From a virus: a stretch of DNA of 64,000 bases. Where the stretch lies: IMG/VR virus record IMGVR_UViG_3300009506_000008, positions 37,021 through 101,020 of that record; one strand, given 5' to 3'. Below, one piece after another: positions 1 to 30,244 of this stretch. A program made the position numbers and the translations under genes. The notes beneath the pieces are model-generated. The model searched no databases and was not told where the DNA came from. It saw only the letters and a list, made by a program, of their open reading frames with translations. Positions within the stretch are counted from its first letter, which is position 1. The number at the start of each line of letters is the position of its first letter.

Positions 1-8
1 ATCAAGTG

Positions 9-209: not shown

Positions 210-508
210 AGCCATATCTCCTGTGGCAGATCCTTGACAGCCAGGCGCAATTCATGCAACGCGCGACGACGGCAGTAGTCAGGACTCGTGAATGCTTCCC
301 CTCCCATGGCGGGCATCCTGACGTAAATGCCGGTCCCGCCGTGAACGATGTGCGCAAGTGTGCCCTTGCGATTGACGAGCATCTTCCACTCGTTCGTCTT
401 GATGAGTGGCAGTTTCTCGTTGAGCAACGAAGCTCGCAGGTCACAGCCCTCCCTGACAGTGAAGTTATCCTTCCAATCTCCGGTGTTCCTTCCTCCGAGT
501 GGAATCAT
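206..508 (-). CDS. Hypothetical protein
   Basis: A 100-residue soluble protein beginning MIPLGG. The start was chosen because a strong GGGAGGTGG SD precedes this ATG and because the ATG overlaps the stop of the upstream gene as TAATG; a longer upstream extension of the frame has no such support. It contains scattered Cys and His but no recognisable domain. It overlaps the next gene by four bases, so it is probably co-translated with both neighbours. Confidence 0.75.
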   Translation of the reverse strand: MIPLGGRNTGDWKDNFTVREGCDLRASLLNEKLPLIKTNEWKMLVNRKGTLAHIVHGGTGIYVRMPAMGGEAFTSPDYCRRRALHELRLAVKDLPQEIWL

Positions 509-825
509 TATTCCACCTCCCTTATGTCCCAGAACTCGCATTTGATGTGATGTCCTAGTTGGATGGTCGCGCCGCACGCAAGGCAGGTTCCCTCTTCATC
601 GGCGCACAGGTTCGGGGCGTCCAACTCGTACACGGTCTTCCAAGTGCCGTCTCCCATGCGCTTGTCAACGCGGAGCCCCTTACTCATGTCTCCAGTCCTG
701 ACTACCGACACTCTGTAAGGCCCGTGATCGAGTTTCAAGTTGCTGTCGTGGCCTTGTGTTAGGGTCGGGAGCATCGTGATTGCATCGATCAAATGCCACG
801 GCCCAAGGTCTTGTATCTCTGTCAT
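508..825 (-). CDS. Hypothetical protein with C-terminal CxxC motif
   Basis: A 105-residue protein starting MTEIQDLG. The ATG sits behind a GAGGAG SD and overlaps the upstream stop as ATGA. The C-terminal third carries a cysteine group (LCADEEGTCLACGA, then HHIKCEF) that could bind one zinc ion. The N-terminal part has no recognised fold. Coupled overlaps on both sides show that it belongs to the same polycistronic block as its neighbours. Confidence 0.75.
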   Translation of the reverse strand: MTEIQDLGPWHLIDAITMLPTLTQGHDSNLKLDHGPYRVSVVRTGDMSKGLRVDKRMGDGTWKTVYELDAPNLCADEEGTCLACGATIQLGHHIKCEFWDIREVE

Positions 826-1427
826 GGCAGCAACTCCTCGGGCACCGTGTCTGGCCTCACGATAGCGATCCACCTCGAACCGATGATCTGGTCGTACGTT
901 GCCGAGATGAGGACTTGTGTTTCATCGTCTCTGAAGATCGCCTTGAAGTGGATATCGGACAGGTGAAACATCATCAGCTTAATACGGTTGAGGACTTCCT
1001 CCGTGGGCTGGACGTACCCGTAGCAGTAACCACGGCCCCCGGAGATCGAGATCATGGGACCGATCCGCACCACACGCCCCTCCGAGTTCTTCCACAAATG
1101 AGCTGGAAGCGTTTCCTCTTTCCCCGAGCGGATCCACTTGGTGAAGACTTCCTTGAAGTCGGTGTACTGAGGAAACAGGAGGGGACGATCACCGAAGAGT
1201 TCGATGTCGCCGTTTTCCAACCCGATGCCGTAGGTCAAGGCTACTCTATCCCACTCGTCATCGTCGCCGCTGGGTACGATGAACCACTTGATCCTGTGAC
1301 CTTCTGGCATGTTGTCTGCTGGAGTGACACACAACTGATGTCCCTTGGGAATGAGTTTTGGTTCTCCTCCTTCCCAAGGCAGGCGTGTGTCGATGTCCCG
1401 AGTGGCCCTTCCGTAGAATCTATCCAT
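822..1427 (-). CDS. Hypothetical protein (201 aa)
   Basis: One of the longer left-arm proteins, with no family recognised. It is mixed charged and aromatic, has no signal peptide or membrane segment, and looks like a globular cytoplasmic protein. The start is behind a GAGGAG SD that lies inside the last codons of the upstream gene, with an eight-base overlap. It ends in a four-base overlap with the next gene. The compact overlaps argue that it is expressed. Confidence 0.8.
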   Translation of the reverse strand: MDRFYGRATRDIDTRLPWEGGEPKLIPKGHQLCVTPADNMPEGHRIKWFIVPSGDDDEWDRVALTYGIGLENGDIELFGDRPLLFPQYTDFKEVFTKWIRSGKEETLPAHLWKNSEGRVVRIGPMISISGGRGYCYGYVQPTEEVLNRIKLMMFHLSDIHFKAIFRDDETQVLISATYDQIIGSRWIAIVRPDTVPEELLP

Positions 1428-1647
1428 GCTTCTCCTCCTCTGAGGACACCTCTTGGCGGCGTTTCAACTGCTCGAAAGTTACTCCGCGAAGGGGTCCGTA
1501 GTCATGTCGCAATGGATTGTCTGGTTCGAGGAATCCGGTCTGGAGAACTGTTCGGCTCTGGCGGAGTCTCGCCACGTACTTGCTTCTGGCGTACCTGGAG
1601 ACACGTTCCGCTTTCTTCGAGAGCCAGTACCAGAATGTTTCTCTCAT
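1420..1647 (-). CDS. Small basic hypothetical protein
   Basis: A 75-residue Arg/Lys-rich protein starting MRETFWYW. The internal ATG at 1647 is chosen over one 48 bases upstream because a GGAGGAGGG SD precedes it and it overlaps the upstream stop as ATGA. The basic central segment (about residues 12-35) and acidic C-terminus could suit nucleic-acid or protein binding, but no domain is recognised. Confidence 0.7.
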   Translation of the reverse strand: MRETFWYWLSKKAERVSRYARSKYVARLRQSRTVLQTGFLEPDNPLRHDYGPLRGVTFEQLKRRQEVSSEEEKHG

Positions 1648-2045
1648 TCCAAACCCTCCTCCAACTTCGACGTTCTCGGGTTTCTCCCCAGCCAAGCCGT
1701 AGCCGCCACGACCCAGGCTCCGCTGAAGTTCTTCTGGATGTACTCCCAGACATCGTGTTTGGAAATGTCCGGGTTGGCAGAGTGTGTCCAGTGGATGCGG
1801 TCACCGGCGAGGTCGCGAATGAAAGCGGCGTCGTTGATGAGCTCGTCGGCGTACCATCCAGACAGGTCCGTCACTCCGTCACGGCGGGCCTTGCGAAGTT
1901 TCTTGGTAGCTTCCTCGGAGAATGCGTGTCCATCCTCAAGGAACTCCTCAGCCTCCGTGGAGGCTGTCTCAAAGGCAGCGTCTTCCAATGCTCCTTTGAT
2001 GGCGTGTGCAACGTCTTCCGCTGACTTATACTTCTCACCGTACAT
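1644..2045 (-). CDS. Hypothetical protein (133 aa), first gene of its block
   Basis: A soluble, acidic, predicted mostly helical protein starting MYGEKYKSAED. The start at 2045 is set by an AAAGGAG SD just downstream of a CCCTGC/GCAGGG hairpin; the open frame extends further upstream only through hairpin sequence. It heads the coupled block 9-2045. No family is recognised. Confidence 0.75.
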   Translation of the reverse strand: MYGEKYKSAEDVAHAIKGALEDAAFETASTEAEEFLEDGHAFSEEATKKLRKARRDGVTDLSGWYADELINDAAFIRDLAGDRIHWTHSANPDISKHDVWEYIQKNFSGAWVVAATAWLGRNPRTSKLEEGLE

Positions 2046-2144
2046 GGACCTACTCCTTTCTCCCTGCTTCAGCAGGGCTGTGGGGTTGAACATCCTATGC
2101 TGCCCCCCTCCTGAGAGGGGGACAGGAAGAAGGCTCAACCAGAA
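2046..2144 (-). promoter_or_regulatory. Intergenic RNA module A (bracketed hairpin plus SD hairpin)
   Basis: Read on the minus strand: an outer stem GGTTGA (2135-2140) with TCAACC (2084-2089) encloses a hairpin CCCCCTC/GAGGGGG (2104-2121). Next comes a hairpin CCCTGC-tgaa-GCAGGG (2062-2077), then the SD of the gene starting at 2045. The first part could terminate or attenuate transcription or be a processing site; the second sits where it could protect a 5' end or influence ribosome binding. The same plan recurs across the arm. Confidence 0.65.
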
Positions 2145-2819
2145 CTACTTGTCTTTCCAGAGCACCCGAGCTTCGACCGGCACCACCCTCATTTCTGTAG
2201 GGAACAGGCGGATCTGACCCGTCGCGAGAAGCACTCCCTTGGAAGTGTTGACTCCCAACATCTGACGCTTCTTGATGGTAACGTATACCTGGCACGTTTC
2301 CATCTTCATGTACACGTCATTTCTGTCGGGTTCCCGAAAGCACTGTCCATACTCGATGGAGTCGATGCACTCCGTCTCGATCAGTACATTTTCGCACTCG
2401 ACTTTCATTCTTTTGGTCTCCTCCCCCGAGGTGTTTATCCCATCTTCACAATGAGCGTCTCGGATTCGTTCGGTGTTGAGTTTGTTGACCGAGTCCATGT
2501 TGCAGAAATGAATCCCGCGAGGTCGGAACCCGGTGATCGTGTGACCGGATGCTGGCATGAGCATGTACACCTCAGGATCTACGGTGATCTTGCTCTCGCT
2601 GAGAGTCCTCCGGTAGTAGTCCTCCCAACTTGCCATAGAGGAGGGGCTCTGGCGTATGGCTCGTTCCATCTCCGTCGTTTCTCTGTGAAGATGATGTGCC
2701 AAGAGGTCTACCCAGTTGGGCTTGTCGATCCTGGACAGCATCTTGGCTGTGTTGGAGATGCGGCAGAAGCCATACCCCGTGAGCCTTTCGGCATCGAGGT
2801 TGGGGAATTTAGAGCTCAT
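2145..2819 (-). CDS. Hypothetical protein (224 aa)
   Basis: An unrecognised protein of 224 residues if it starts at the ATG at 2819, which overlaps the end of the upstream zinc-ribbon gene by eleven bases. The open frame extends far upstream, but only as the antisense-like shadow of that gene. The SD is weak here, so translational coupling is assumed and a later ATG is possible. The C-terminal half contains several Cys and alternating hydrophobic strands. Function unknown. Confidence 0.65.
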   Translation of the reverse strand: MSSKFPNLDAERLTGYGFCRISNTAKMLSRIDKPNWVDLLAHHLHRETTEMERAIRQSPSSMASWEDYYRRTLSESKITVDPEVYMLMPASGHTITGFRPRGIHFCNMDSVNKLNTERIRDAHCEDGINTSGEETKRMKVECENVLIETECIDSIEYGQCFREPDRNDVYMKMETCQVYVTIKKRQMLGVNTSKGVLLATGQIRLFPTEMRVVPVEARVLWKDK

Positions 2820-3204
2820 CGAACTCGCTCGCTGCCACTTCGTTGGTCTTGACGGTGTACTCAACCGACCGTTCGCAGTGGACGCACTTGACGTCGATGC
2901 TCGCCTCCAACCAGAAGAGGCGCTTGGCGTACCTGCCGCCGCCCTTCTCCATGACCTCGAACTCGGGTTCGTCCACTTCCTCGAACTCTTGGTCTTCCTC
3001 GTCGCAGTCAGGGCACTCGAAGTCCTCGCTGATGGAGAAGAACGCTTCCTTCTTCTCTTCAGCACAGCACTCCGACAACCTAGCCAGCCGGATCTCCGCT
3101 TCCAGGTGGCCCCCCTCTGTCTCGAAGTCCCAACTCTGAACTTCGGGTTCGCCCTCTTCCAGTGAGCAGAATGTGTTGCAGTTGTCACATCTCGTTGCGG
3201 CCAT
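2809..3204 (-). CDS. Acidic protein with several CxxC motifs
   Basis: A 131-residue, strongly acidic protein behind an AGAGGAGG SD. It has an N-terminal CDNC, a central CC and CPDC, and a C-terminal CVHC, enough for one or two zinc-ribbon folds. The acidic run between CPDC and CVHC is Glu/Asp rich. Zinc binding is inferred from spacing only. It lies just downstream of the RadC-like and sigma-like genes in the same block. Confidence 0.8.
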   Translation of the reverse strand: MAATRCDNCNTFCSLEEGEPEVQSWDFETEGGHLEAEIRLARLSECCAEEKKEAFFSISEDFECPDCDEEDQEFEEVDEPEFEVMEKGGGRYAKRLFWLEASIDVKCVHCERSVEYTVKTNEVAASEFDEL

Positions 3205-3216
3205 GTGTACCTCCTC

Positions 3217-3708
3217 TCAGGTTTGTGGCAAGACACCCTTGCCGTGGTAGGAATAGTAATCATCGGTGCCGTCGCCGATGATCACGTGGTCCAGCAACCG
3301 CAGTCCCAGCAGGAAGCACCCCTGTTGGAGGCGTGTCGTTAGCTGGTTGTCCTCGTCGCTGGGATCTGCATGACCGGTGGGATGGTTGTGGATCAGGACA
3401 ATGCCGTGTGCTTTGAGCACAAGAGCGGGACCAAACACTTCCCTGGGGTGTACCAAAGTTCCGCTCAGTGTCCCTACCGATGTGGTGTAGATGCCGATGG
3501 CATGGTTGCGTGCATCGACAGCAATGACAGCGAACTGTTCACATCCGTTGTCTTGGAGATGCTGCCGTGCGATCTGCACCACAACGCTACTGTGATTGAT
3601 CTTCGGTAAGGACAGGGCTGGCGGTCCCTCTCGTACCATGCTGATCCTGTACGAGGGAATTTCAATGTACTTCGGGGACATCTTTGGAGCCGGTTTTGTC
3701 CTCGCCAT
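3217..3708 (-). CDS. RadC/JAB-domain (MPN+) protein
   Basis: A 163-residue protein ending in a RadC-like JAB domain. The JAMM metal site is complete: Glu90, His107-x-His109 in HNHPTG, and Ser117-x-x-Asp120 (DPSDED). This predicts a zinc-dependent hydrolase fold. Cellular RadC proteins are of uncertain biochemical role despite the old DNA-repair name. It is shorter than cellular RadC and lacks its usual N-terminal helix-hairpin-helix part, as is common in phage and plasmid copies. The ATG overlaps the stop of the sigma-like gene (TGATG), so the two are probably co-translated. Confidence 0.88.
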   Translation of the reverse strand: MARTKPAPKMSPKYIEIPSYRISMVREGPPALSLPKINHSSVVVQIARQHLQDNGCEQFAVIAVDARNHAIGIYTTSVGTLSGTLVHPREVFGPALVLKAHGIVLIHNHPTGHADPSDEDNQLTTRLQQGCFLLGLRLLDHVIIGDGTDDYYSYHGKGVLPQT

Positions 3709-4220
3709 CAGCGCATCGCCTCCTTGAGTTCGTTCGTTACCTTCCAGCACTTATGCCATCCCCATCCCAGTGCCGTCTGCATGTGGAATCGCAGTCGGGA
3801 CCGGATGGCGCCAGGTTTCTTCTCTTCCAGAAGCCCGACGACTTCCTCTGGTGCTTGAAGGATGATCCGAACGATCTCTTGAGCCTCCGCTGACAGGCTC
3901 GCTATCGTTTCCTTGAACGCTAGCTCTGCGAACGGGCTGGGCCCGTTCTCCCTGTCAGGGATCTCGTCCACCAACTCCTCGTGGAAGTTCCTCACGTGCT
4001 CGTTCTGTGCCCAGGTAATCAGCGCGTTCTCCACACACTTGTACACCCAGGTGTTGATCGAGGACTTCTCATCGTCGTAGCTGCCCAACGCTACGGCAAA
4101 GGCGACCAGGGCTTCCGACTCCAACTCGTCGTAGGGCAACCCTGTGGTTTGAGCAAAGGACCGAGCCCTGGCTCTAACCAATCCGATTAACTCTGGCGTC
4201 ACTACAATCCCTTCACTCAT
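3708..4220 (-). CDS. Sigma-70-family-like factor
   Basis: A 170-residue protein starting MSEGIVVTPE after a GAGAGGAG SD. Residues about 10-75 match the sigma region 2 pattern: a DELESEALVAFAVALGSYD helix pair, then INTWVYKCVENALITW in place of the usual FsTYAxxxIrnaI. The C-terminus has no standard helix-turn-helix region 4. It ends instead in GWGWHKCWKVTNELKEAM, similar to short phage sigma-like factors. It probably redirects host RNA polymerase to later phage promoters. Family assignment is by motif; the target promoters are unknown. It heads a four-gene block with the RadC-like gene directly behind it. Confidence 0.75.
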   Translation of the reverse strand: MSEGIVVTPELIGLVRARARSFAQTTGLPYDELESEALVAFAVALGSYDDEKSSINTWVYKCVENALITWAQNEHVRNFHEELVDEIPDRENGPSPFAELAFKETIASLSAEAQEIVRIILQAPEEVVGLLEEKKPGAIRSRLRFHMQTALGWGWHKCWKVTNELKEAMR

Positions 4221-4307
4221 GCTACTCCTCTCTCCCAGGTTCTCCTGGGCTGTGGGGTGAGACTTTATCAGAAGGGACGAAGTCACCCTCGTCCCCTCTG
4301 GAATGCC
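4221..4307 (-). promoter_or_regulatory. Intergenic RNA module B
   Basis: On the minus strand a strong 11-bp stem (4270-4280 with 4289-4299, one G-U pair) is followed by CCCAGG-agaa-CCTGGG (4234-4249) and then the SD of the sigma-like gene. A short outer pairing GTGAG/CTCAC (4257-4261 with 4307-4311) overlaps the upstream stop codon. The layout matches module A. Confidence 0.6.
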
Positions 4308-4520
4308 TCACATAAGGGTGAACTGCATTGTGCAATTGACACACGTGAAAGAACCGTTGCCGTTGGTAGGCGGGCAGTATCCATCCAACGGTTCGTCTAT
4401 GTCCTTGGAATACTTTCGAGCTAAGTGATTCTCGTGTTCGCAGTGAGGGCAGTGTGCGTATACCAATAACATCAACTTCTTTGGAGTCGGTTTCATTTGC
4501 CTCTTGCGTGTTCTCGCCAT
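4308..4520 (-). CDS. Small zinc-ribbon protein
   Basis: A 70-residue protein with a basic N-terminus (MARTRKRQMKPTPKK) and two CxxC knuckles, CPHC near residue 24 and CVNC near residue 60, a typical four-Cys zinc ribbon. The start at 4520 is preferred to 4532 because the GGAGG SD lies between the two ATGs. It overlaps the upstream gene by 28 bases. A nucleic-acid or protein-binding role is plausible but not shown. Confidence 0.75.
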   Translation of the reverse strand: MARTRKRQMKPTPKKLMLLVYAHCPHCEHENHLARKYSKDIDEPLDGYCPPTNGNGSFTCVNCTMQFTLM

Positions 4521-4831
4521 TTCCGCCTCCATTCTTTGTTGAATCCTACCCTGATACCCTCCTCGTACACGTCCCAGACATCATAGGGTTTGATCTGCTG
4601 TGCATCGTTGAGATCGCTGGCCGTGAACTCGAACGGGGAGAACTGGCGATTGTTCTCCTCGGCTTGCCAGCACCGGTGGAGGAAGACTACCTCCTGGTCG
4701 TTCTTGTCTTCCACGATCTTAATGTCAAGATCGTGGTCGTCAATCTCTTCCCCGATCTCAGGGAAGTCCTGGTAACTGGCAATGCTTTCTCCTCTGTCGC
4801 GGCCTTCTTCATAGATTTCTTTCTTGTTCAT
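4493..4831 (-). CDS. Hypothetical acidic protein (112 aa)
   Basis: An acidic soluble protein starting MNKKEIYEEGRD behind GAGGAGGG. Its ATG overlaps the upstream stop as ATGA. It contains acidic stretches around residues 25-45 and a basic C-terminal tail (EWRRKWREHARGK). No domain is recognised; charge segregation suggests a protein-interaction role. Confidence 0.75.
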   Translation of the reverse strand: MNKKEIYEEGRDRGESIASYQDFPEIGEEIDDHDLDIKIVEDKNDQEVVFLHRCWQAEENNRQFSPFEFTASDLNDAQQIKPYDVWDVYEEGIRVGFNKEWRRKWREHARGK

Positions 4832-5031
4832 GTTCCCTCCTCATGCACCATCCTGTGCGTTTCCTCCTTGTGGAAGTTGAAGTACGAGAACAACCGGAAC
4901 CTGTCCCAACCCAGCGTGCGTCGGCAGTGTCTGATAGCACCGCGCACTGTCTTGAGTTGAAAGAGAACCCTGTGACTCGTTCCCAACGGTTCCTTTCCCT
5001 CATCGTTTGGAACGTAAGCGTAGAATCTCAT
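4828..5031 (-). CDS. Hypothetical protein (67 aa)
   Basis: A small basic protein starting MRFYAYVPNDEG. The ATG at 5031 follows the upstream stop by two bases, and the SD (AAGGGGGAG) lies in the last codons of that gene. No motif is recognised. It overlaps the next gene by four bases. Confidence 0.7.
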   Translation of the reverse strand: MRFYAYVPNDEGKEPLGTSHRVLFQLKTVRGAIRHCRRTLGWDRFRLFSYFNFHKEETHRMVHEEGT

Positions 5032-5033
5032 CG

Positions 5034-5276
5034 TCACTCCCCCTTGTAACAATCATCGAGGTTGTGGTTGGCTCTGTCTGTCTCAGGGACAATCGTTACC
5101 AACCCCAAGTCCTCGATTTTGGTCGTTCCCGGCTCGAACCAATAGCCGGGACCGTCGTAGTCAGCGTCCAATGGATCGGTGCTGACCTCCATTGCTTGCA
5201 TGGCATCGACACTAACCAATCTAGTGACGAGTTCTCCATGCCTGTTAGTGCCTCTGAACATTCGGTACTTGTTCAT
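5034..5276 (-). CDS. Hypothetical protein (80 aa), first gene of its block
   Basis: A soluble protein starting MNKYRMFRGTNRHGE, placed behind an AAGAGGAGG SD that directly follows the GCTCC/GGAGC hairpin of module C. The frame continues upstream only through the hairpin region. It has alternating strands and an acidic C-terminus. No family is recognised. Confidence 0.75.
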   Translation of the reverse strand: MNKYRMFRGTNRHGELVTRLVSVDAMQAMEVSTDPLDADYDGPGYWFEPGTTKIEDLGLVTIVPETDRANHNLDDCYKGE

Positions 5277-5367
5277 GCGATCCTCCTCTTGACTGTGCTC
5301 CTTCAGGAGCAGGTTGAGAAACCGAGGAAGGGGACGAGGTGACTCGTCCCCTCGACTGCGCCTCAAC
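5277..5367 (-). promoter_or_regulatory. Intergenic RNA module C
   Basis: This is the clearest copy. The outer stem GGTTGAG/CTCAACC (5312-5318 with 5362-5368) encloses a perfect 9-bp hairpin, GGGGACGAG with CTCGTCCCC (5330-5338 and 5343-5351, 4-nt loop). It is followed on the minus strand by GCTCC-tgaa-GGAGC (5297-5310) and the SD for the gene starting at 5276. Confidence 0.7.
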
Positions 5368-5577
5368 CTACTTGCTGAGCTTCTTGATAAGCGAGAGTCG
5401 CTTGGTCTTGCAGCAATTCTCACCCCCATCCTCATATCCACAGGAGAGGCACACATCCATATTGGCCGGGTTGTTCGGACAGTTCTCCATGTGCCTGTGG
5501 AACTTGGTTGCGTCCTCCCGACCTCGTTCATCCTTGTCGCACTTGATTGTTTTGGAACAGAACACGCAGAACATCAT
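5368..5577 (-). CDS. Small cysteine-rich zinc-binding-like protein
   Basis: A 69-residue protein with CVFC near the N-terminus, an H-x-H/C group in the middle (FHRHMENC), CLSC, and a CC pair, eight Cys in all. This is enough for two metal sites. The start MMFCVFC overlaps the upstream stop (TGATG). The Lys-rich C-terminus ends directly in the outer stem of module C. Function unknown. Confidence 0.78.
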   Translation of the reverse strand: MMFCVFCSKTIKCDKDERGREDATKFHRHMENCPNNPANMDVCLSCGYEDGGENCCKTKRLSLIKKLSK

Positions 5578-6074
5578 CAGTCCTCCCACAGTATGCTGAG
5601 GTCTTTGCTGATGACCCCAAGCCGAACCTTGTCACCGCCGTGCTCCTTCATCCAGACAATGTAGTCCATGATCGACACACGGGACAGACCTTTCCACTCC
5701 GGGTCTGTCTTGTGCTTGAGAAGCAGAGCTTGGAAAGCACCCGTTACGCCGGCCAACAGGAAGTCGTCGGGCTCTGGACACTTGCTCTCTTGACCGTTCT
5801 CGATGAGGGGATCGGGCATTGGACAGTTGATTGCGAGTCTCCAATCTTCCTCGAACGCTGCCCTGGCGTCGATTACCGGGCACCCGACCATGTCAGGGTA
5901 GCTACCCTTCTCGCCGTTCTGGAGAGCTTTGACAAAGGATTCTGGAGAGTCATACCCGCTGATGCGGTATGTCGTACGTGGTCTGCCGTGCTGAGCTCCG
6001 TAAGAATCATCCTTGGAGCACTCTACTCCGTGCCCTCCCAACCCGAAGGACACCAAATGTGCAATGTCAGCCAT
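5577..6074 (-). CDS. Hypothetical protein (165 aa)
   Basis: A soluble protein starting MADIAHLVSFGLGG after an AGAAGGAGGT SD that lies within the last codons of the upstream gene. No recognised domain. It contains a region (about residues 40-95) of mixed strands with conserved-looking Pro and Cys, but no pair suggesting a ribbon. Confidence 0.78.
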   Translation of the reverse strand: MADIAHLVSFGLGGHGVECSKDDSYGAQHGRPRTTYRISGYDSPESFVKALQNGEKGSYPDMVGCPVIDARAAFEEDWRLAINCPMPDPLIENGQESKCPEPDDFLLAGVTGAFQALLLKHKTDPEWKGLSRVSIMDYIVWMKEHGGDKVRLGVISKDLSILWED

Positions 6075-6408
6075 CTCCTACCTCCTTCTGAATAATGCTC
6101 CGCGTGATGCGAAGCAGTTCGTTGATCTCTTCCAGCATGGCATCGTCCATTCGCTCGGGATTTCTGTTGACGAGTTCCTCGATGCGCTTGGTAACATATT
6201 CCCAATGCCGTTGTGCCAGGAGTTTCCGGGCCGCGGCCTCCAAGATGTGGACGGGCTTGCCGAAGATACCAGCTTCGTCATAACTCCAGACGTAGTAGCT
6301 GGTACCTATCTGCAACTTCCTCAGCTTGTCCGCCCAATCTTCTGGGACCGCGTAGTCGTAATTCTTCAGGGAGGTGTAATTGTTGATGACGTCTAGGCTG
6401 GTTACCAT
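6067..6408 (-). CDS. Hypothetical helical protein (113 aa), first gene of its block
   Basis: Starts MVTSLDVINNYT behind AAGGAGG, directly after the GCCTC/GAGGC hairpin of module D. The C-terminal half (about residues 58-113) is predicted helical and rich in Leu, Arg and Glu. No family is recognised. It overlaps the next gene by eight bases. Confidence 0.78.
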   Translation of the reverse strand: MVTSLDVINNYTSLKNYDYAVPEDWADKLRKLQIGTSYYVWSYDEAGIFGKPVHILEAAARKLLAQRHWEYVTKRIEELVNRNPERMDDAMLEEINELLRITRSIIQKEVGDG

Positions 6409-6494
6409 GCGCTCCTCCTTGCCTCTTCAGAGGCACTAGGGGTTGTTGGCCGAACGATCTTACCCCCAACCGAAGTTGGGGGCAAGGGCGAGGG
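6409..6494 (-). promoter_or_regulatory. Intergenic RNA module D with UUCG tetraloop
   Basis: On the minus strand an outer stem GTTGACC/GGCCAAC (6493-6499 with 6445-6451, one mismatch) surrounds CCCCCAAC-ttcg-GTTGGGGG (6463-6482), a cUUCGg loop known to be unusually stable in RNA. GCCTC-tgaa-GAGGC (6421-6434) follows immediately before the SD at the 6408 start. Confidence 0.7.
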
Positions 6495-6701
6495 TCAACG
6501 ACCGTAGGCTCCGTTATCCAGCGCGAACTGGGCCGCTTCGCGGGAAGGATAGTAACCAGATTCTCTGGAGATCGGGCCGCACTGTTCGCACCAATACCCG
6601 ATGTAATAGGCATTGGAACGACAGATTTGGATCTTCAGCTTCGCGCCACACTCAATGCACGTTGTCTCCGTTCCACCTAGTGTTTCACCGGGCAGTGTCA
6701 A
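6495..6701 (-). CDS. Zinc-ribbon protein with TTG start
   Basis: A 68-residue protein with CIECG and WCEQCG knuckles plus a Cys near residue 27, a typical small zinc ribbon. No ATG is suitably placed. A TTG at 6701 has an ideal AGGAGG SD seven bases upstream and overlaps the stop of the previous gene as TTGA, matching the overlap style of the arm. The C-terminal part (YYPSREAAQFALDNGAYGR) resembles a short helical cap. Function unknown. Confidence 0.75.
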   Translation of the reverse strand: MTLPGETLGGTETTCIECGAKLKIQICRSNAYYIGYWCEQCGPISRESGYYPSREAAQFALDNGAYGR

Positions 6702-6919
6702 TGTACTACCTCCTCGTTGATGTTGATGTTGATGGTGCCTTTCTTTCCTATCAGACTGATCTCGATCTCTGTGGCTCCGAGATCCGTGAGACGTGTGATG
6801 AGCTCGTCCACGCATTGCTCGAAGGGCTGTCCCAGAGTCGGATCGGCACCAGTGCGCCCGTCCTCGAAACACCAGACGAGCCTGTTGGTGTACGATTCTT
6901 GGTAGACGTAAACGTACAT
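6698..6919 (-). CDS. Hypothetical protein (73 aa)
   Basis: Starts MYVYVYQESYTN in a TGATG overlap with the upstream gene. It is a compact alpha/beta-looking protein with an isoleucine-rich C-terminus (INININEEVVH). No family is recognised. The SD (AAGGTGGAC) is within the upstream gene, consistent with coupling. Confidence 0.72.
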   Translation of the reverse strand: MYVYVYQESYTNRLVWCFEDGRTGADPTLGQPFEQCVDELITRLTDLGATEIEISLIGKKGTINININEEVVH

Positions 6920-7116
6920 CAGTCCACCTTGATCCCGTCCCACAGATCCTCCTTGATCTGCTTTTCCACTGCGTCACACAGATAACGCAGTTGGGAGACG
7001 GCCTTCTTGATGAGTCCGACGTTGCCAGATCCCCAAGACATCTTGAGATCGGCGGCCATGTTCTCCGCTAGATCCAACAGTCCCGTGATTTGTTCTCGCT
7101 TCGTTGGCTGGACCAC
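6919..7116 (-). CDS. Small helical protein with GTG start
   Basis: A 65-residue protein beginning at GTG 7116 behind AAGGAGG, one base after the upstream stop. It appears wholly alpha-helical with Leu/Ala spacing compatible with a helical hairpin. No family is recognised. Confidence 0.72.
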   Translation of the reverse strand: MVQPTKREQITGLLDLAENMAADLKMSWGSGNVGLIKKAVSQLRYLCDAVEKQIKEDLWDGIKVD

Positions 7117-7117
7117 T

Positions 7118-7273
7118 CTAGTCCTCCTTGGTTACGTTGGGAACCAGTGCGCACACAAACGCAAGCAATGCCAACAGTCCACCTCCCACGTAGTCGAAAG
7201 AGGAAGTGACATGCTTGTACGCACTGATTGCAATGAATGCTGACAGTGCATAGAACACGATCTTGAAGATCAT
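7118..7273 (-). CDS. Small membrane protein, two predicted TM helices
   Basis: A 51-residue protein starting MIFKIVFYALSAF. Two hydrophobic stretches (about residues 2-20 and 30-46), separated by a short polar loop, suggest a membrane hairpin. The ATG overlaps the stop of the upstream 45-aa gene as ATGA. Holin-like size and topology are possible, but no lysis genes are nearby, so the role stays open. Confidence 0.75.
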   Translation of the reverse strand: MIFKIVFYALSAFIAISAYKHVTSSFDYVGGGLLALLAFVCALVPNVTKED

Positions 7274-7407
7274 CTCGACACGATCCAGGTGTGCTGTATG
7301 CGCTGGCGCACCGTGCCGTTTGCTGTGCTGAAGACTACCAGGTAGTCCCCAGCCGTTCTGACCGCATACGCGATCTTCTGCATGATTCTCCAGGCTTTGT
7401 CCTTCAT
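7270..7407 (-). CDS. Small basic protein (45 aa), first gene of its block
   Basis: A 45-residue frame, ATG at 7407 behind GAGGAGG and directly after the GCCCC/GGGGC hairpin of module E, ending in an ATGA overlap with the membrane protein gene. It is Arg/Lys-rich (MKDKAWRIMQKIAY). Short, but the SD, the overlap and the position all support it. No function recognised. Confidence 0.7.
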   Translation of the reverse strand: MKDKAWRIMQKIAYAVRTAGDYLVVFSTANGTVRQRIQHTWIVSR

Positions 7408-7518
7408 GATACACCTCCTCTTGGTTGTGCCCCTTCTGGGGCAGGGTGGAGAGAGATGGTCTCAATGCTGCCCTGGTTTTTCCCGGTTTAGGCGAACCGG
7501 CACCAGGGCAGGATGAAA
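7408..7518 (-). promoter_or_regulatory. Intergenic RNA module E
   Basis: On the minus strand a long two-tier stem-loop has a 10-bp outer stem, CTGCCCTGGT with ACCAGGGCAG (7502-7511 and 7468-7477), and an inner CCGGTT/AACCGG (7483-7488 with 7495-7500). It is followed by GCCCC-agaa-GGGGC (7429-7442) and the SD for the 7407 start. The strict GTTGAC bracket of the other modules is missing here. Confidence 0.65.
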
Positions 7519-7527
7519 CTACCTCAT
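7519..7527 (-). other. Possible two-codon minigene ATG-AGG-TAG
   Basis: A perfect AAAGGAGGT SD is followed at normal spacing by ATG AGG TAG. It lies in a gap between the small gene ending at 7586 and hairpin module E. The arrangement resembles the bar minigenes of phage lambda (ATG plus one codon), but it may be the remnant of a lost gene or chance. Translation is not demonstrated. Confidence 0.3.
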
Positions 7528-7585
7528 CTCGTACCTCCTTTGGTTGCTTGTCGTTCTCAATGAACGCAGCCGAACTGCTTGAGCT

Positions 7586-7798
7586 CTACTTCTTCTTGCG
7601 GTTGACGTTGAGGGAGACGATCACGTCGGCGTGACCGGGAACCGCCGCGAAGCCCGAGGTGGTCGCGATCATGTGCGTCTTCCCAGACTTGGTGGGACCG
7701 TTGTCCTGGGACAGGTCGAACTCCAGGGTGAGCTTGTTGCCGTCCACGGTAGCGACGACGTTGGTTCCCAGCTCGGTGGTGTCTTTTGCGCGTGCCAT
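7586..7798 (-). CDS. Small conserved-looking beta protein (70 aa)
   Basis: The sequence LTLEFDLSQDNGPTKSGKT with the following MIATTSGFAAVPG and a C-terminal LNVNRKKK matches a pattern I associate with small uncharacterised bacterial, archaeal and phage proteins (DLS-x-GP-S-SGKT-x-IATT-G). That link is from memory, not a search. It is predicted mostly beta with a basic tail. It stands alone between modules E and F, behind an AGAAAGGAT SD, suggesting independent expression. Function unknown. Confidence 0.8.
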   Translation of the reverse strand: MARAKDTTELGTNVVATVDGNKLTLEFDLSQDNGPTKSGKTHMIATTSGFAAVPGHADVIVSLNVNRKKK

Positions 7799-7858
7799 GG
7801 TAGATCCTTTCTGGGCATCAGCCCTTGTTTTGGGGCAACGTTGCCCCGGTTGGTGGAA
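7799..7858 (-). promoter_or_regulatory. Intergenic RNA module F
   Basis: A palindrome GGGGCAAC/GTTGCCCC (7832-7847) and a small hairpin GGGC-tgat-GCCC (7813-7824) precede the SD of the gene starting at 7798. It is a reduced version of the modules seen elsewhere in this arm. Confidence 0.55.
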
Positions 7859-8119
7859 CTAGCCTTTGAAGCCGAACTCTTTCTTGAGAGCCGCAAGGAC
7901 GGCGGGTTTCATGACGGTCTTCCACTCCTGGTAAATCTTGTACCCGGAGCGTTCAGCGAACACGTCCTCCGCGCTGATGTTTGCACGAAGAAAGCTCTCC
8001 AGGTCCTTGTGAGGCTCGGCCAATTCGATGATCTCTTTGATCTCCAGGCACTCGTAAAGCGAAGTGCAAGGACCAAAGCAATCCTTGACCTTCAGCGCCG
8101 TCTGTTCCGTCATGTCCAT
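7859..8119 (-). CDS. Hypothetical helical protein (86 aa)
   Basis: Starts MDMTEQTALKVKDC in a TGATG overlap with the upstream gene, SD GGAGGAAG. Predicted mostly helical, with three Cys in the first 25 residues but no clear metal-binding spacing. No family is recognised. Confidence 0.75.
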   Translation of the reverse strand: MDMTEQTALKVKDCFGPCTSLYECLEIKEIIELAEPHKDLESFLRANISAEDVFAERSGYKIYQEWKTVMKPAVLAALKKEFGFKG

Positions 8120-8499
8120 CAGTCTTCCTCCGCTTTGGAGCCCCGCTGCTTGGCTCGTTCTGCCCTGGTCTCCCGTGCTCGGGCGATGAGTTCCATCATC
8201 TTCTGGAGGAGTTCCCCGCCATCTTCGGCAGACATCTCCAGCAGAACACAGTTGAGATTGAGTCCGTAGTACAGCTCATGTCCCAACTCGGCGGTCATCT
8301 TGCACACGCGACCGACCATGTCATCGAGTCCAGCAGGAATCGGGAGCTCCAACGTCTTCGTTTCCGCCAGAGCGATGTTCCGTTCTGTACCACATGCGCC
8401 CGATCCGTACTGGTGAGGGCAGCGCATGATACGAACGTTTACCCAACGCTTGCATTTTGGACACTTCCACAAGTCTACCTTTGTGGGCCTTCCCATCAT
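8119..8499 (-). CDS. Zinc-ribbon protein with helical C-terminus (126 aa)
   Basis: Starts MMGRPTKVDLWKC behind AAAGGAGGG. An N-terminal CPKCKRW, a following CPHQYGSGACG and nearby residues form a probable zinc ribbon (about residues 13-37). The rest is helical with a charged C-terminal tail. A DNA- or RNA-polymerase-binding role is common for such folds but is not shown here. Confidence 0.78.
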   Translation of the reverse strand: MMGRPTKVDLWKCPKCKRWVNVRIMRCPHQYGSGACGTERNIALAETKTLELPIPAGLDDMVGRVCKMTAELGHELYYGLNLNCVLLEMSAEDGGELLQKMMELIARARETRAERAKQRGSKAEED

Positions 8500-8513
8500 T
8501 ATACTGCCCTCCT

Positions 8514-8669
8514 TTACTTGGCAGAGATACAGACTCTTTCCCCATCCGGCGAGGTCAGAATCATGTACTCTCCCTGTTGGAACGAGCAGGCGCGCTCGTT
8601 CTTTGTGGGTGTCGTCGCGCATCCTGCCAACAACAGGACGAACGCCAACGCGCTAATCATCGTTCGCAT
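8514..8669 (-). CDS. Small lipoprotein with lipobox (51 aa)
   Basis: The frame starts MRTMISALAFVLLLAGC behind GGAGGTGA and ends 14 bases before the next gene. It has a basic start, a hydrophobic stretch and a lipobox (LAGC, Cys17), so signal peptidase II should leave a lipidated mature peptide of 35 residues. Two further Cys (28 and 47) could form a disulfide. It is exported and membrane-anchored by prediction. Candidates are an outer-spanin-like peptide, a superinfection-exclusion lipoprotein or an envelope-modifying factor; none can be chosen from sequence. Confidence 0.75.
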   Translation of the reverse strand: MRTMISALAFVLLLAGCATTPTKNERACSFQQGEYMILTSPDGERVCISAK

Positions 8670-8674
8670 AGGAC

Positions 8675-8755
8675 TCACCTCCATTCTCCTACGGGTTGCG
8701 GGTTGAAGTACCGCAGAGAGGCGCGACCAAAGTCGTGCCCCTCGACGATGTTCAA
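8675..8755 (-). CDS. Possible 26-aa peptide with TTG start
   Basis: A TTG overlapping the upstream stop as TTGA would open a 26-residue frame (MNIVEGHDFGRAS start, PQPVGEWR end) that fills an otherwise empty 82-base gap. The SD (GGAAAG) is weak. It is listed because the arm shows the same overlap style at 6701, but it may be untranslated. Confidence 0.28.
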   Translation of the reverse strand: MNIVEGHDFGRASLRYFNPQPVGEWR

Positions 8756-9036
8756 CCGAGCTGGCTTTCCAACACAGACTTGAGGATGTGGGACGTTCCG
8801 GTCAATTCCTCCGTGGACAATCCCTCGGACATTACCAACTCCAGCTTGTCGAGTTCCAGGATGCAATCGTCCAGGCTATACCTCCCGCAGTTCAACGCCG
8901 CGAGGAAGTTCCTGAAGGTGTTCACAATCTGCGCCGGTGTCATGGATATCTTCTCCACAGGATTCTCCACAGGGCACTGTTCAAACTCGGTGCCGCACAG
9001 TGAAGCGTTCGCATTCGGACAGTTTTCACAGAGCAT
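8752..9036 (-). CDS. Hypothetical protein with N-terminal Cys cluster (94 aa)
   Basis: Starts MLCENCPNANASLCG behind AGGAGG. Four Cys in the first 21 residues (CENC, C, C) suggest a small metal knuckle, followed by a helical region (about residues 32-94) rich in Leu, Glu and Ser. No family is recognised. Confidence 0.78.
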   Translation of the reverse strand: MLCENCPNANASLCGTEFEQCPVENPVEKISMTPAQIVNTFRNFLAALNCGRYSLDDCILELDKLELVMSEGLSTEELTGTSHILKSVLESQLG

Positions 9037-9045
9037 TGGTACCTC

Positions 9046-9243
9046 CTAGATGCGTGTCAATGTTGGTCTAGGCCAAGCGGTTGGACGCCACTCGTACAGG
9101 TCACCGTCCTTGGTTAAGATATGCCAAGTTCCCATGTGAGGACCATTGTACTCGACAACCTCCATGCAGGACTTGTCCAGCATCTTGAACAAAATGTGTG
9201 AGTACAAACTGCCCTCCAAGTTCCGCATGTTCTTTGCTGCCAT
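9046..9243 (-). CDS. Hypothetical protein (65 aa)
   Basis: Starts MAAKNMRNLEGSLYS behind GGGAGGAG. Predicted beta-rich, with conserved-looking Trp and His (MGTWHILTKDGDLYEW). No family is recognised. It is separated from neighbours by about ten bases on each side. Confidence 0.75.
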   Translation of the reverse strand: MAAKNMRNLEGSLYSHILFKMLDKSCMEVVEYNGPHMGTWHILTKDGDLYEWRPTAWPRPTLTRI

Positions 9244-9254
9244 TCCACTCCTCC

Positions 9255-9440
9255 CTACCGGCTGACGTGGATTCCCCCAGGGGTAACCCAGTCGGCCTTG
9301 TTGTAGGCCAGCGCGAAGTCGCTTTGGACGTCTCGGAAGCAGATGAAGTAGTTCCAGCCCTGCTTCGCCAACATCGCTATGGCCCGCTTGCGGTCAGCCG
9401 CGTTTGCGTAGCCTCTGGTGTGTTCAATGATGCGCTTCAT
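9255..9440 (-). CDS. Hypothetical basic protein (61 aa)
   Basis: Starts MKRIIEHTRGYANAADRKRA two bases after the upstream stop, with its SD (AAGAAGAGG) inside the upstream gene. The N-terminal half looks helical and basic, the C-terminal half strand-like. No family is recognised. Confidence 0.72.
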   Translation of the reverse strand: MKRIIEHTRGYANAADRKRAIAMLAKQGWNYFICFRDVQSDFALAYNKADWVTPGGIHVSR

Positions 9441-9442
9441 CT

Positions 9443-9646
9443 CTACCTCTTCTTTGACGACGTTACGTGAACTGTAACGTCTCCTCGGTGGTCGATGATG
9501 TCCTTCATTGCCTCTTTGGAGATTTCGTCCCCTGGCAACCACTCGATGCTGTTCGTGATCTTGGTGACCACGTACACAATCTTGGTCGGCTGGGGAATGT
9601 GGCGCTCGTGCGCCTCCACATGGAGAGTGACCGGCTTGTGCCTCAC
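9443..9646 (-). CDS. Hypothetical protein with GTG start (67 aa)
   Basis: The GTG at 9646 has a perfect AGGAGG SD and overlaps the upstream stop as GTGA. The only upstream initiator in frame would lie inside the previous gene without an SD. The protein is beta-rich in its first half (KIVYVVTKITNSIEWL) with a basic tail. No family is recognised. Confidence 0.72.
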   Translation of the reverse strand: MRHKPVTLHVEAHERHIPQPTKIVYVVTKITNSIEWLPGDEISKEAMKDIIDHRGDVTVHVTSSKKR

Positions 9647-9810
9647 TTTTTCCTCCTGTTGAACCACTCCCCGCACTGGTTACACTTTCTGACAGTGTCG
9701 GACAGTGGTTTCACGTTGCGGGACTTGCACTTGGGGCACTGACCCCACCCCGTGTCAACTCCCTTGTTGTAGTGGACTCCTGCACGCTCGAAATTGGTCG
9801 AAAACGGCAT
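9643..9810 (-). CDS. Small zinc-ribbon protein (55 aa)
   Basis: Has CPKCKS and CNQCGEWF knuckles separated by about 18 residues, a classic four-Cys ribbon, followed by a basic C-terminus (NRRKK). The start MPFSTNFERAG follows an AGAGGAGG SD downstream of module G. It is similar in size to the other ribbons of this arm. Binding partner unknown. Confidence 0.78.
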   Translation of the reverse strand: MPFSTNFERAGVHYNKGVDTGWGQCPKCKSRNVKPLSDTVRKCNQCGEWFNRRKK

Positions 9811-9882
9811 TTCTTGATCCTCCTCTGCTAGGGTTGACTGCCTGGGCCTGCCCTCGTCCAGAGACAAGGACAGGAACAGAGG
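9811..9882 (-). promoter_or_regulatory. Intergenic RNA module G
   Basis: On the minus strand an outer stem GTTGAC/GTCAAC (9882-9887 with 9833-9838) encloses an irregular hairpin built on CCTG/CAGG (9871-9874 with 9847-9850) and GTCC/GGAC. The upstream stop codon TGA is part of the outer stem. No WGAA hairpin precedes the SD here. Confidence 0.6.
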
Positions 9883-10095
9883 TCAACGAGAGTGGTCGAG
9901 AGGAACCGGGACCATTGCCGATCCCAGCCAGTACAGGTAGCAGTTCAGCCCGTGTTGGGCAATAATGGCCTCGATCACCTTTTTGGCGCTCTTGGACGAC
10001 GTCGAACGGTGAATCGTGGCAAGGGCACGAGCCTTGCTGGCATCATCCGGCATGGACAACGCCGTTCTGATTCGGGACGGGATGGTTTCGGCCAT
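9883..10095 (-). CDS. Hypothetical helical protein (70 aa)
   Basis: Starts MAETIPSRIRTALS in a TAATG overlap with the upstream gene. Predicted helical over most of its length (about residues 5-50), with a hydrophobic C-terminal segment (LYWLGSAMVPVPL) too short and mixed to call a membrane helix. No family is recognised. Confidence 0.72.
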   Translation of the reverse strand: MAETIPSRIRTALSMPDDASKARALATIHRSTSSKSAKKVIEAIIAQHGLNCYLYWLGSAMVPVPLDHSR

Positions 10096-10262
10096 TACTT
10101 CACTCCTTGAACTGAGAGTTTGCACTTCTCACAGACCAGTTTCCGGGGATCGCTTGGAACGCCCTTTGCGGGATTCCAAACCATCACCTGTCGAGAGTCT
10201 CCAAAGGCCCATCCGCATTCAGTTGTACCCTTACCGTTTACGAGGTGAATTTTGTGCTTCAT
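10095..10262 (-). CDS. Small CxxC protein (55 aa)
   Basis: Starts MKHKIHLVNGKGTTECGW behind GAGAGGAGG in a TAATG overlap. CEKC near the C-terminus pairs with Cys16 and nearby His to make a plausible metal site. The basic N- and C-termini fit nucleic-acid contact. Function unknown. Confidence 0.72.
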   Translation of the reverse strand: MKHKIHLVNGKGTTECGWAFGDSRQVMVWNPAKGVPSDPRKLVCEKCKLSVQGVK

Positions 10263-10369
10263 TAGAATCCTCCTCTCAGGGACAGCTGGTTCATGACGGG
10301 AGCCAAGTAGTACGCGGCCCCAACAGCGAGTGCTCCGAGCCAACCGATTGCCAGCCATACGACATTCAT
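10262..10369 (-). CDS. 35-aa single-pass membrane peptide
   Basis: A 35-residue peptide starting MNVVWLAIGWLGAL behind AGAAGGAGG. One hydrophobic segment (about residues 2-24) is followed by a short polar tail. The SD follows the ACCGC/GCGGT hairpin of module H, and the gene ends in TAATG with the next one. The tiny size is offset by good initiation signals. Role unknown. Confidence 0.68.
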   Translation of the reverse strand: MNVVWLAIGWLGALAVGAAYYLAPVMNQLSLRGGF

Positions 10370-10442
10370 TTGAACCTCCTTCTGTTGTACCGCTTCAGCG
10401 GTAGTTGGCGGGCACCGAACTGGTCGATGCCCTACGGATGAC
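10370..10442 (-). promoter_or_regulatory. Intergenic RNA module H
   Basis: On the minus strand an outer pairing GTTGG/CCAAC (10447-10451 with 10404-10408) surrounds a loose hairpin on GGGC/GCCC. It is followed by ACCGC-tgaa-GCGGT (10389-10402) and an AGAAGGAGG SD for the 10369 start. Same plan as modules A, C and D. Confidence 0.62.
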
Positions 10443-10577
10443 CTAACCAACAGCTTCGTCGTATTCACGCCATGCTGCACAGTGTGAATCACATCCGGGG
10501 CAGCTATCGTGGTCGCAATCCATGCAGGGATCGTCAATCTCGACAATCGTACCATCCGCCATAGTCGTCTCTCGCAT
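10443..10577 (-). CDS. 44-aa cysteine-rich peptide
   Basis: Starts MRETTMADGTIVEI in a TGATG overlap with the upstream gene. The second half is dense in Cys and Asp (CMDCDHDSCPGCDSHC), six Cys with CxxC pairs, a compact metal knuckle. Either zinc or iron-sulfur binding is possible from spacing alone. Function unknown. Confidence 0.7.
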   Translation of the reverse strand: MRETTMADGTIVEIDDPCMDCDHDSCPGCDSHCAAWREYDEAVG

Positions 10578-10870
10578 CACTTTTCCTTTCTCCGTCGGAT
10601 AACCTTGGCCCCGTTCGCCAAGGCTTTCTCTTTGGCCTTCTCCAAAGCATGGTCGGCAAACGCCTTTCCGAAGGGATTCATCTGGTCGTAGCCGATCAAT
10701 TGGTCGCGCTCCTCTGCGCGATCCGCTTTGGCGATCAAACCCCGCAACTGCTTGGCGTCGTAGGTATATGGGTGGTACCGCTTCTCTTTCTTGATTCGGG
10801 GTTTGATCGGACTCTGCATCACCGGGTCTCTGCCGTTCCTTGGAGACCCCACACCAAATCTCTTCGACAT
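10577..10870 (-). CDS. Lys/Arg-rich protein (97 aa)
   Basis: Starts MSKRFGVGSPRNG behind CAAGGAGG. It is strongly basic throughout, with a C-terminal helix of Lys, Ala and Glu ending in IRRRKEK. The frame stays open upstream, but only this ATG has an SD. Such composition suggests DNA or RNA binding; no family is recognised. Confidence 0.75.
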   Translation of the reverse strand: MSKRFGVGSPRNGRDPVMQSPIKPRIKKEKRYHPYTYDAKQLRGLIAKADRAEERDQLIGYDQMNPFGKAFADHALEKAKEKALANGAKVIRRRKEK

Positions 10871-11392
10871 TCTTGAACCTCCTTGCAGCAATTGAACAGA
10901 ACGGGATACAGCTGAATTTTTCCGGGTAGGAACGGACATTGGAAAAGTCCATCTGAATCCTGTTCTACTCTTGGTCGTATAGGGGAGAAGCGTCGCGCAC
11001 GTGAGCTGGTCGTCCGATCCTCGCGGGTACGGCTAACGTCACCCCCCACCTAGCCCGTTGACCCCGCCGCTCCGCTCCAGGTGGGTTGCACCTATCTTGG
11101 CAGAGCTCCAACCCCGTGCGGCCTAGCTTGAACAGATGGCGTCGGCGCGGTATTGGAGAGGTGGCCTGCGTGGACTTCCGATACTCTTGGTGGCCCGTAT
11201 CGGGCGCAGGCTCGTTGGGTTAGGAAGTGAGCATATTTCGCCCAAATCCCGCGTGCTGCGACTCCCGTTGTCAAAGACCGATCCTGCGGTTGACCCCCCC
11301 TGACAGGGCGCTCCCGTGGCCGGAAGCGGCCTGTCAGGGGAAGGGTCGGCCTGGGCGGCCGATCCTTCCTGGATCCCGACTTGCGCGGTAGG
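10871..11392. ncRNA. Gene-poor stretch with nested hairpins (possible structured RNA)
   Basis: No convincing gene lies in these 520 bases. Read on the minus strand they hold, after two terminator-like hairpins: a two-tier hairpin with 7-bp arms GCCTGCG/CGCAGGC (11164-11170 with 11205-11211) around CCGATAC/GTATCGG (11178-11184 with 11197-11203); a stem CTCCAA/TTGGAG (11106-11111 with 11153-11158) enclosing further pairs; and 7-bp CCCACCT/AGGTGGG (11045-11085), which competes with a hairpin at 11079-11093. This may be a leader or a separate noncoding RNA. No tRNA fold was found. Confidence 0.4.
11290..11368 (-). terminator. Tandem terminator-like hairpins after gene 11393-11731
   Basis: Downstream of the leftward gene are a short hairpin, GATCGGCC with GGCCGACC (11344-11364), and then a long one whose arms contain CCCCTGACAGG (11288-11298) and CCTGTCAGGGG (11330-11340). 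No T-tract follows, so termination efficiency is uncertain; either could be a processing signal. Confidence 0.5.
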
Positions 11393-11731
11393 CTAACTGG
11401 CGCGGTATTCTCCCGCTTTTTCGGCCGCTTGCATGGTCGCCTGGTTGAAGCTGAGGCTACCGTCGGCCGCTTCGATAACGATGGAACCGAATCTTTTCGC
11501 GAGGTGGCGAAGGTGGCACTTCACGCGGCCGATGAGCGCCTTATGGGCTTCTTGTCCGTGGCCGCCACGGCCGCTGTTTTTCCTTTGCGCTTGTGGGTAC
11601 TCGCCACCGGCTTTGCCGATGTGGAGCTCATCGGCAATACCGCGAATGTCACGGCCGCCAAACAGGATAAGGGAATCAATCCTGGCCGCCTGGGAGTCTA
11701 CATTGTGACCGAGAAAGTTTTTCTGTGACAT
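11393..11731 (-). CDS. Hypothetical protein (112 aa), first leftward gene
   Basis: Starts MSQKNFLGHNVDSQ behind AGAAAGG, preceded by a hairpin GGCCGC/GCGGTC like those before other blocks. It is the gene nearest the switch region on the left and so probably the first transcribed leftward. It is helical and basic in the second half (RVKCHLRHLAKRFG). It could be a regulator, but no helix-turn-helix is clear and no family is recognised. Confidence 0.72.
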   Translation of the reverse strand: MSQKNFLGHNVDSQAARIDSLILFGGRDIRGIADELHIGKAGGEYPQAQRKNSGRGGHGQEAHKALIGRVKCHLRHLAKRFGSIVIEAADGSLSFNQATMQAAEKAGEYRAS

Positions 11732-12094
11732 GGTGTTCTACCTTTCTGACCGCCTCAGCGGCCGTCGGTTTCCGCGAATCGGGCTGATCCGCGGGGTGGA
11801 ACTTTTTATTTTTTAGTTATGCGCGAAGTGTGCCGAAGAGATGAAATCGCGCTGAAAAACATTGTTTGTTTCAGTCGGATCATCCCGCAATCAGCCGGAA
11901 TCGCCCGGAAACAAAGGGAAAAATTATTTTTGCCTATGCTAAGATTTCCAACAAAAATCACGGCACATCAATTGCACAGCAAACGATGTTTTCATGAAAT
12001 ACTGCGCGAACACACACACCTCATGGACGCAGTTTGCTCTTACAAGTGTTACAAACCAGGGACTTTTCCGCGAGAATACAGGCTTTTTTGCACT

Positions 12095-20681: not shown

Positions 20682-20686
20682 AGAGA

Positions 20687-20720
20687 GTGTTGAAGGGGGA
20701 GACTTTCTCCCCCTTCACAC
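20687..20720 (+). terminator. Hairpin after the capsid gene
   Basis: A perfect 12-bp stem, TGAAGGGGGAGA (20691-20702) with TCTCCCCCTTCA (20706-20717), has a 3-base loop and extends by GTG/CAC after a bulge. No T-run follows, so it may slow rather than end transcription, or stabilise the capsid mRNA 3' end. Confidence 0.6.
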
Positions 20721-20738
20721 TTCAAGGGAGGTCCGCAC

Positions 20739-26023: not shown

Positions 26024-26045
26024 GGGCATATCCTTCAGGGTTAGT

Positions 26046-26073: not shown

Positions 26074-26090
26074 CTTGATGGGAAAGAACG

Positions 26091-30223: not shown

Positions 30224-30244
30224 TACCGGGTAGCACATGGCAAG

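Follow-up and report, generated by a model that had tools for sequence, protein, structure and literature searches.

An intergenic hairpin device between the small left-arm genes of an uncultured phage, with a possible role in message processing

Introduction

Phage T7 provides the best-known case of intercistronic RNase III sites, and repeated intergenic stem-loops are also familiar from the promoter-early stem-loop (PeSL) cassettes of T4-type phages, which lie among small early genes and each carry an early promoter. Here we describe a hairpin device that occupies every real gap between the small left-arm genes of an uncultured phage, IMG/VR record IMGVR_UViG_3300009506_000008. The window, meaning the whole 64,000-nucleotide (nt) stretch analyzed, comprises bases 37021-101020 of this 101,020-base record; the 37 kb to its left were covered as loci L003 and L004, and positions below are those of the window unless a locus is named. 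Read 5' to 3' on the minus strand, a module consists of the upstream stop codon, a large imperfect hairpin, a small hairpin (at six sites), a Shine-Dalgarno sequence (SD), and a start codon. We put at roughly one half the probability that the large hairpins are sites of T7-like, RNase III-type processing, after which the downstream message would begin close to its small hairpin.

The modules share with the PeSL cassettes their form as repeated intergenic stem-loops between small early genes, but no sigma-70-like promoter was found in them in a scan covering the sigma-70 type only, and a PeSL identity was rejected. The start-associated sequences (SAS) and extended SAS (ESAS) of Cluster K mycobacteriophages are repeated elements upstream of the starts of non-structural genes, the ESAS containing 17-bp inverted repeats for which the authors find little support for RNA pairing (PMC3203893). 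Like these, the modules stand before starts, place an inverted repeat upstream of an SD-like element, and have an inverted-repeat sequence specific to a phage group. However, pairing is conserved here and sequence is not, whereas the ESAS conserve sequence rather than pairing. The SAS proper, the 13-bp GGGATAGGAGCCC beside the start codon, shows no excess, with 18 matches at up to three mismatches against 17.64 expected. A further parallel comes from operons with selective RNA processing and stabilization, in which intergenic stem-loops divide the transcript into pieces of unequal stability (PMC8219983, PMC4423207). These operons are bacterial rather than a series running through a phage arm, and the available portions of the reports describe no SD-proximal hairpin family. 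Among the 4227 covariance models of Rfam, none matched the 64-kb window at its gathering score, and none matched positions 1-12000 at an E value of 1 or below.

Placement of the hairpins and structure of the large stems

The genes of the left arm lie on the minus strand, and with gene starts assigned by coding score and SD, the 30 gene boundaries at 2.0-10.6 kb were inspected base by base. At 21 of them the genes overlap or are separated by no more than 14 nt, and none of these carries a hairpin. The other nine boundaries have gaps of at least 60 nt (range 60-178 nt), and all nine are filled by hairpins standing in intercistronic position upstream of the next SD, so that the non-coding space of this region consists almost entirely of modules. 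Eight of the nine are modules proper and one, at 7.8 kb, is a reduced form. The first-pass annotation of this DNA had named at least five full sites, and these five (2.1, 5.3, 6.4, 9.8, and 10.4 kb) are indeed present on the minus strand and fold as claimed. It had also listed reduced forms at 4.2, 7.4, and 7.8 kb, which is correct for 7.8 but not for 4.2 and 7.4, both of which are full modules, and it had overlooked an eighth module at 8.7 kb, with an outer stem of GGTTGAA/TTCAACC. The earlier observation is confirmed, and in a stronger form.

The large stems are imperfect. In seven of those in the window, and in the one at L004:16964-17025 just outside it, making eight of nine, they comprise 20-24 bp split by internal loops, or about two helical turns; module 10.4 is shorter and 7.8 is reduced. 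All of the following lie on the minus strand, with z denoting the minimum free energy relative to dinucleotide shuffles. Module 2.1 (2084-2140; z = -4.65 with its small hairpin) has 8 bp, a 1x1 loop, 4 bp, a 2x3 loop, 11 bp, and a tetraloop. In module 4.2 (4257-4311; z = -5.48) a 7-bp outer stem, GTGAGGC/GTCTCAC, which contains the upstream TGA, is followed by a 4x5 internal loop, 14 bp, and a tetraloop, and in module 5.3 (5312-5370; z = -4.10) an outer stem of about 9 bp, whose base overlaps a TAG, is followed by a 1x1 loop, 2 bp, a 4x5 internal loop, 11 bp, and a tetraloop. Module 6.4 (6445-6499; z = -3.83) pairs as 4+2+2+12 bp with small internal loops and a TTCG loop, and has a TGA inside its outer stem, while the outer stem of module 7.4 (7459-7519; z = -4.84) is GTTTCA/TGAGAC. 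The reduced form at 7.8 (7813-7847; z = -2.60) consists of two small hairpins, GGGGCA-ACGT-TGCCCC and GGGC-TGAT-GCCC, followed by the SD. Module 8.7 (8701-8757; z = -3.72; 7+5+7+4 bp) and module 9.8 (9833-9887; z = -3.79; 6, 4, and 12 bp) both have a TGA inside the outer stem. Module 10.4 (10405-10451; z = -2.89) is a weaker hairpin of GTTGG/CCAAC plus 9 bp, with a TAG inside or next to its outer stem.

At six modules (4.2, 5.3, 6.4, 8.7, 9.8, and 10.4) the upstream stop codon is thus within the outer stem or in contact with it, as the earlier annotation had proposed for several cases, and at 2.1 it falls 4 nt before the stem. At 7.4 we observed a two-codon minigene, ATG AGG TAG (7519-7527, minus strand), which is preceded by a strong SD, AAAGGAGGT, and whose stop codon lies exactly at the base of the module; to judge from its position, it may deliver a terminating ribosome, which at other modules comes from a real gene. 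An outer stem of GTTGA/TCAAC type, considered typical in the first-pass annotation, is found at the five sites it named, but this sequence is not a defining feature of the module, because 4.2 and 7.4 have other outer stems. Beyond the outer stem, MAFFT produced no mutual alignment of the large hairpins of the window, and the evidence for them is therefore their stability, constant length, and placement. It had also been suggested that inner sequences differ while pairing is kept: the inner hairpins are independently stable, but being unalignable they do not provide column-by-column covariation.

GC-rich stems at gene ends are also what intrinsic or conditional transcription terminators or attenuators would present. 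A scan of the minus strand found no terminator-like site (a GC-rich stem with a U tract) at any module, the stems lead directly into an SD and start codon, and the intervening sequence contains no sigma-70-like promoter; we regard this explanation as very improbable and, on sequence grounds, largely refuted. It is also very improbable that the modules act at the level of DNA, as mobile cassettes, recombination boundaries, or inverted-repeat operators. The outer stems are alike within the genome, and modules 2.1 and 4.2 are 84% identical over 37 nt and therefore represent duplicated copies, but identity between most copies is low and there is no sigma-70-like promoter of the sort expected in a T4-type PeSL. 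The modules are moreover strand-specific, with the SD invariably downstream of them on the coding strand, and their two-sided stem changes and variable apical parts fit RNA.

Several strong hairpins were observed outside the series of nine gaps. The hairpin at L004:16964-17025 (minus strand), to the left of the window, has an outer stem of TTGATCG/CGATCAA and is followed by TGTATAAT and two hairpins, and then by the gene at window positions 9-215; this element may be a processing hairpin coupled to a promoter. A near-perfect 56-nt hairpin (-47 kcal/mol) lies at 11292-11347 on the minus strand, within non-coding DNA (10.9-11.4 kb) that precedes the entire left arm. On the plus strand, strong single hairpins precede the next start in three gaps between structural genes of the right arm (20681-20739, 26023-26091, and 30223-30315), without a [U/A]GAA hairpin.

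A small hairpin with a fixed loop beside the Shine-Dalgarno sequence

At six sites (2.1, 4.2, 5.3, 6.4, 7.4, and 10.4) a 6-bp hairpin with a UGAA or AGAA loop stands 0-8 nt upstream of the SD, which agrees with the earlier observation of such a hairpin directly before the SD at most sites; it is absent at 8.7 and 9.8. The six copies, all on the minus strand, are CCCTGC-TGAA-GCAGGG at 2062-2077 (module 2.1), followed by the SD AAAGGAG and an ATG at 2045; CCCAGG-AGAA-CCTGGG at 4234-4249 (module 4.2), before a sigma-factor-like gene (3708-4220); TGCTCC-TGAA-GGAGCA at 5296-5311 (module 5.3); TGCCTC-TGAA-GAGGCA at 6420-6435 (module 6.4), abutting the SD; TGCCCC-AGAA-GGGGCA at 7428-7443 (module 7.4); and TACCGC-TGAA-GCGGTA at 10388-10403 (module 10.4). 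Standard pairs occupy 36 of 36 cells across these copies, five of the six pairs show two-sided changes, and the covariation score was reached by none of 500 shuffles. Selection on the structure of the small hairpin is therefore strongly supported.

A pattern requiring a perfect 6-bp stem, a [TA]GAA loop, an SD, and then a start codon matched six times in 12 kb and nowhere else in the record, while 1000 dinucleotide shuffles of the 12 kb gave a mean of 0.001 matches and a maximum of 1. The same pattern had no match in 7.2 Mb of other phage loci, counting both strands. One similar hairpin, ACCAAC-TGAA-GTTGGT at about L004:11554 (minus strand), stands 17 nt before another SD-GTG start, a spacing unlike that of the six modules. 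The loop is UUCG most commonly among 51 other SD-proximal hairpins from 4.8 Mb of related loci, and neither UGAA nor AGAA occurs among those listed; stability alone therefore explains the fixed loop poorly. We could not match the SD-proximal [U/A]GAA set to anything described. Operators of the CsrA/RsmA type were rejected, the loops being UGAA or AGAA and not GGA.

Coliphage coat proteins offer a likeness for a translational regulon, in which the [U/A]GAA hairpins would be operators for a single RNA-binding protein of phage or host that represses or activates the six cistrons jointly, the large hairpins being a separate matter. The loop is fixed while the stem varies, it is always beside the SD, and its constancy is poorly explained by stability, all of which such a protein would account for. 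Nevertheless, we think this explanation rather unlikely as a whole, as the 70 left-arm proteins include no known RNA-binding regulator at the thresholds used (best 25 of 32 PHROGs families), and UGAA also occurs in 16S-like rRNA as an ordinary structured tetraloop (cited in PMC5311481). A protein-read regulon could hold together with processing.

Hairpin families in distant relatives

The left arm itself had no match among 50,697 phage records in searches for near and distant DNA relatives, and the 1546-residue gene at 53.7-58.3 kb likewise had no relative among these records. For the product of the 5.6-kb gene no relative was found in viral contigs, and for the SNF2 helicase none in genome contigs. 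Covariation accordingly rests on copies within one genome, since the orthologous boundaries have no relatives for comparison. Distant relatives were reached through the SNF2 helicase and primase genes adjoining the region, and replication genes were found to be common to six loci (L086, L122, L150, L196, L204, and L221), each of which has its own family of long intergenic hairpins, in which lower stems are conserved and upper stems vary.

Covarying stems were present in all three families tested (L086, L122, and L221). The five copies of L086 gave a covariation score above all 500 shuffles, and four of them have z values of -4.9 to -6.8. The families of L150, L196, and L204 were recognized by folding, and a second L122 family has two copies, too few for covariation. 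The proposal that the intergenic modules are selected RNA structures is well supported, both by covariation among the SD-proximal copies and by these covarying families. Over all related loci, 98 of 991 gaps contain such hairpins as against about 38 expected from shuffled gaps, with the excess concentrated in a few contigs. No [U/A]GAA hairpin was found in the related loci.

Apparent matches of L112 and L114 to the outer-stem pattern of L086 proved to be chance matches in coding sequence, and a generic scan that folded the 107 nt upstream of every start was discarded as too loose, with matches throughout coding sequence. In L150, at 3133-3204 and 4030-4122 (plus strand), we observed a hairpin whose 3' arm, CTCTATACGCTTTT, is followed by tandem 21-nt units that repeat that arm.

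Comparison with T7 and a proposed processing mechanism

For comparison, five positions of the T7 early region (R0.3, R0.5, R1, R1.1, and R1.3) were folded, which we take to be the RNase III cuts of Dunn and Studier, the T7 record carrying no annotation. At the presumed R0.5, folding gives an outer stem of 8 bp, a 4x5 internal loop, and 10 bp, the outer stem containing the TGA of gene 0.4. This fold plan, with its 4x5 loop, recurs in modules 4.2 and 5.3. Both systems consist of serial, intercistronic, imperfect two-turn hairpins with an SD near on the downstream side, and in T7 the outer stem of R0.5 holds the stop codon, which at R1 is nearby. They differ in sequence, in number, with eight modules and a reduced one here in about 8.5 kb of small accessory genes, and in the extra UGAA/AGAA hairpin before the SD at six modules.

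We therefore propose the following by analogy with T7, in which transcription through the gaps, cleavage, the identity of the enzyme, and the function of the small hairpin are all inferred. Transcription of the left arm would yield long leftward messages, which would be divided at the gaps into short polycistronic units. The large imperfect hairpin, which spans about two helical turns and has its internal loops close to the center, would serve as an RNase III-type processing site. After the cut, the lower 5' arm and the stop codon would remain on the upstream message, and the downstream message would now begin close to the UGAA/AGAA hairpin. In that position the hairpin might protect against 5'-dependent decay, keep the ribosome site open, or both, or be a protein-binding site. 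No RNase III was found among the 70 left-arm proteins in the same search as above, and thus the enzyme would be that of the host. The first-pass suggestion of a single long transcript that the modules divide into blocks for separate translation or processing is partly supported, because the hairpins are placed only at non-overlapping boundaries, lack terminator-like sites on the minus strand, and match the T7 plan.

Several observations weigh against processing at these sites. Of the T7 controls, R1.3 folds well (z = -3.44), but three others fold weakly in isolation (z = -0.96, -1.31, and -1.74), which makes structure alone a soft criterion. The T7 site sequence CUCAAGGUC.../...GGCCUUUAUGA (AAGGUC.../...GGCCUU with flanks) is absent from the modules in a reading by eye, no sequence search having been made, and the claim is therefore that the modules work like T7 sites, not that they belong to that family. 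The two elements are separable, since modules 8.7 and 9.8 have no small hairpin and module 10.4 is weak. In the relatives, a stop codon overlaps the stem in 29 of 65 cases against 27.8 expected from gap geometry; this is no enrichment, and we do not count the overlap as evidence there.

The placement and structure of the large hairpins would fit equally well if no cutting took place and they acted at the ends of gene blocks as translational insulators and 3'-end stabilizers, blocking ribosome sliding or re-initiation and exonucleases so that expression is set per block, as happens in operons with selective RNA processing and stabilization. From the stop codon onward the gap is entirely taken up by hairpins, and 3'-end stem-loops are so used in clostridial operons (PMC8219983). 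Such an arrangement, which together with the protein-read regulon is a serious rival to processing, nevertheless seems doubtful to us, as a pure barrier needs neither internal loops nor a constant length of 20-24 bp, and the SD-proximal hairpin would need a separate explanation.

Returning to processing, the hairpin families match in structure but are specific to each genome, and their presence in several uncultured phages of distant relationship suggests that the cutting of long messages where gene blocks meet is common among phages and has evolved independently; they also offer a sequence-level way to find it. The [U/A]GAA set raises a directly testable question, namely whether one loop sequence coordinates six genes. 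A more speculative combination, which we think improbable in its entirety, is that the modules are the standard spacer of the arm, joining a processing hairpin to (mostly) a small one with a fixed loop that a single protein recognizes, such that cutting and translation of at least six gene blocks would be switched together, and that many phages with this replication module have evolved a processing part of their own.

Gene content of the left arm

L003, L004, and the left arm of the window encode GTP cyclohydrolase I, QueD-like, QueE-like, ThyX, dUTPase, and SbcC/phosphoesterase-like proteins, a predicted gene set that suggests 7-deazaguanine modification of the phage DNA.

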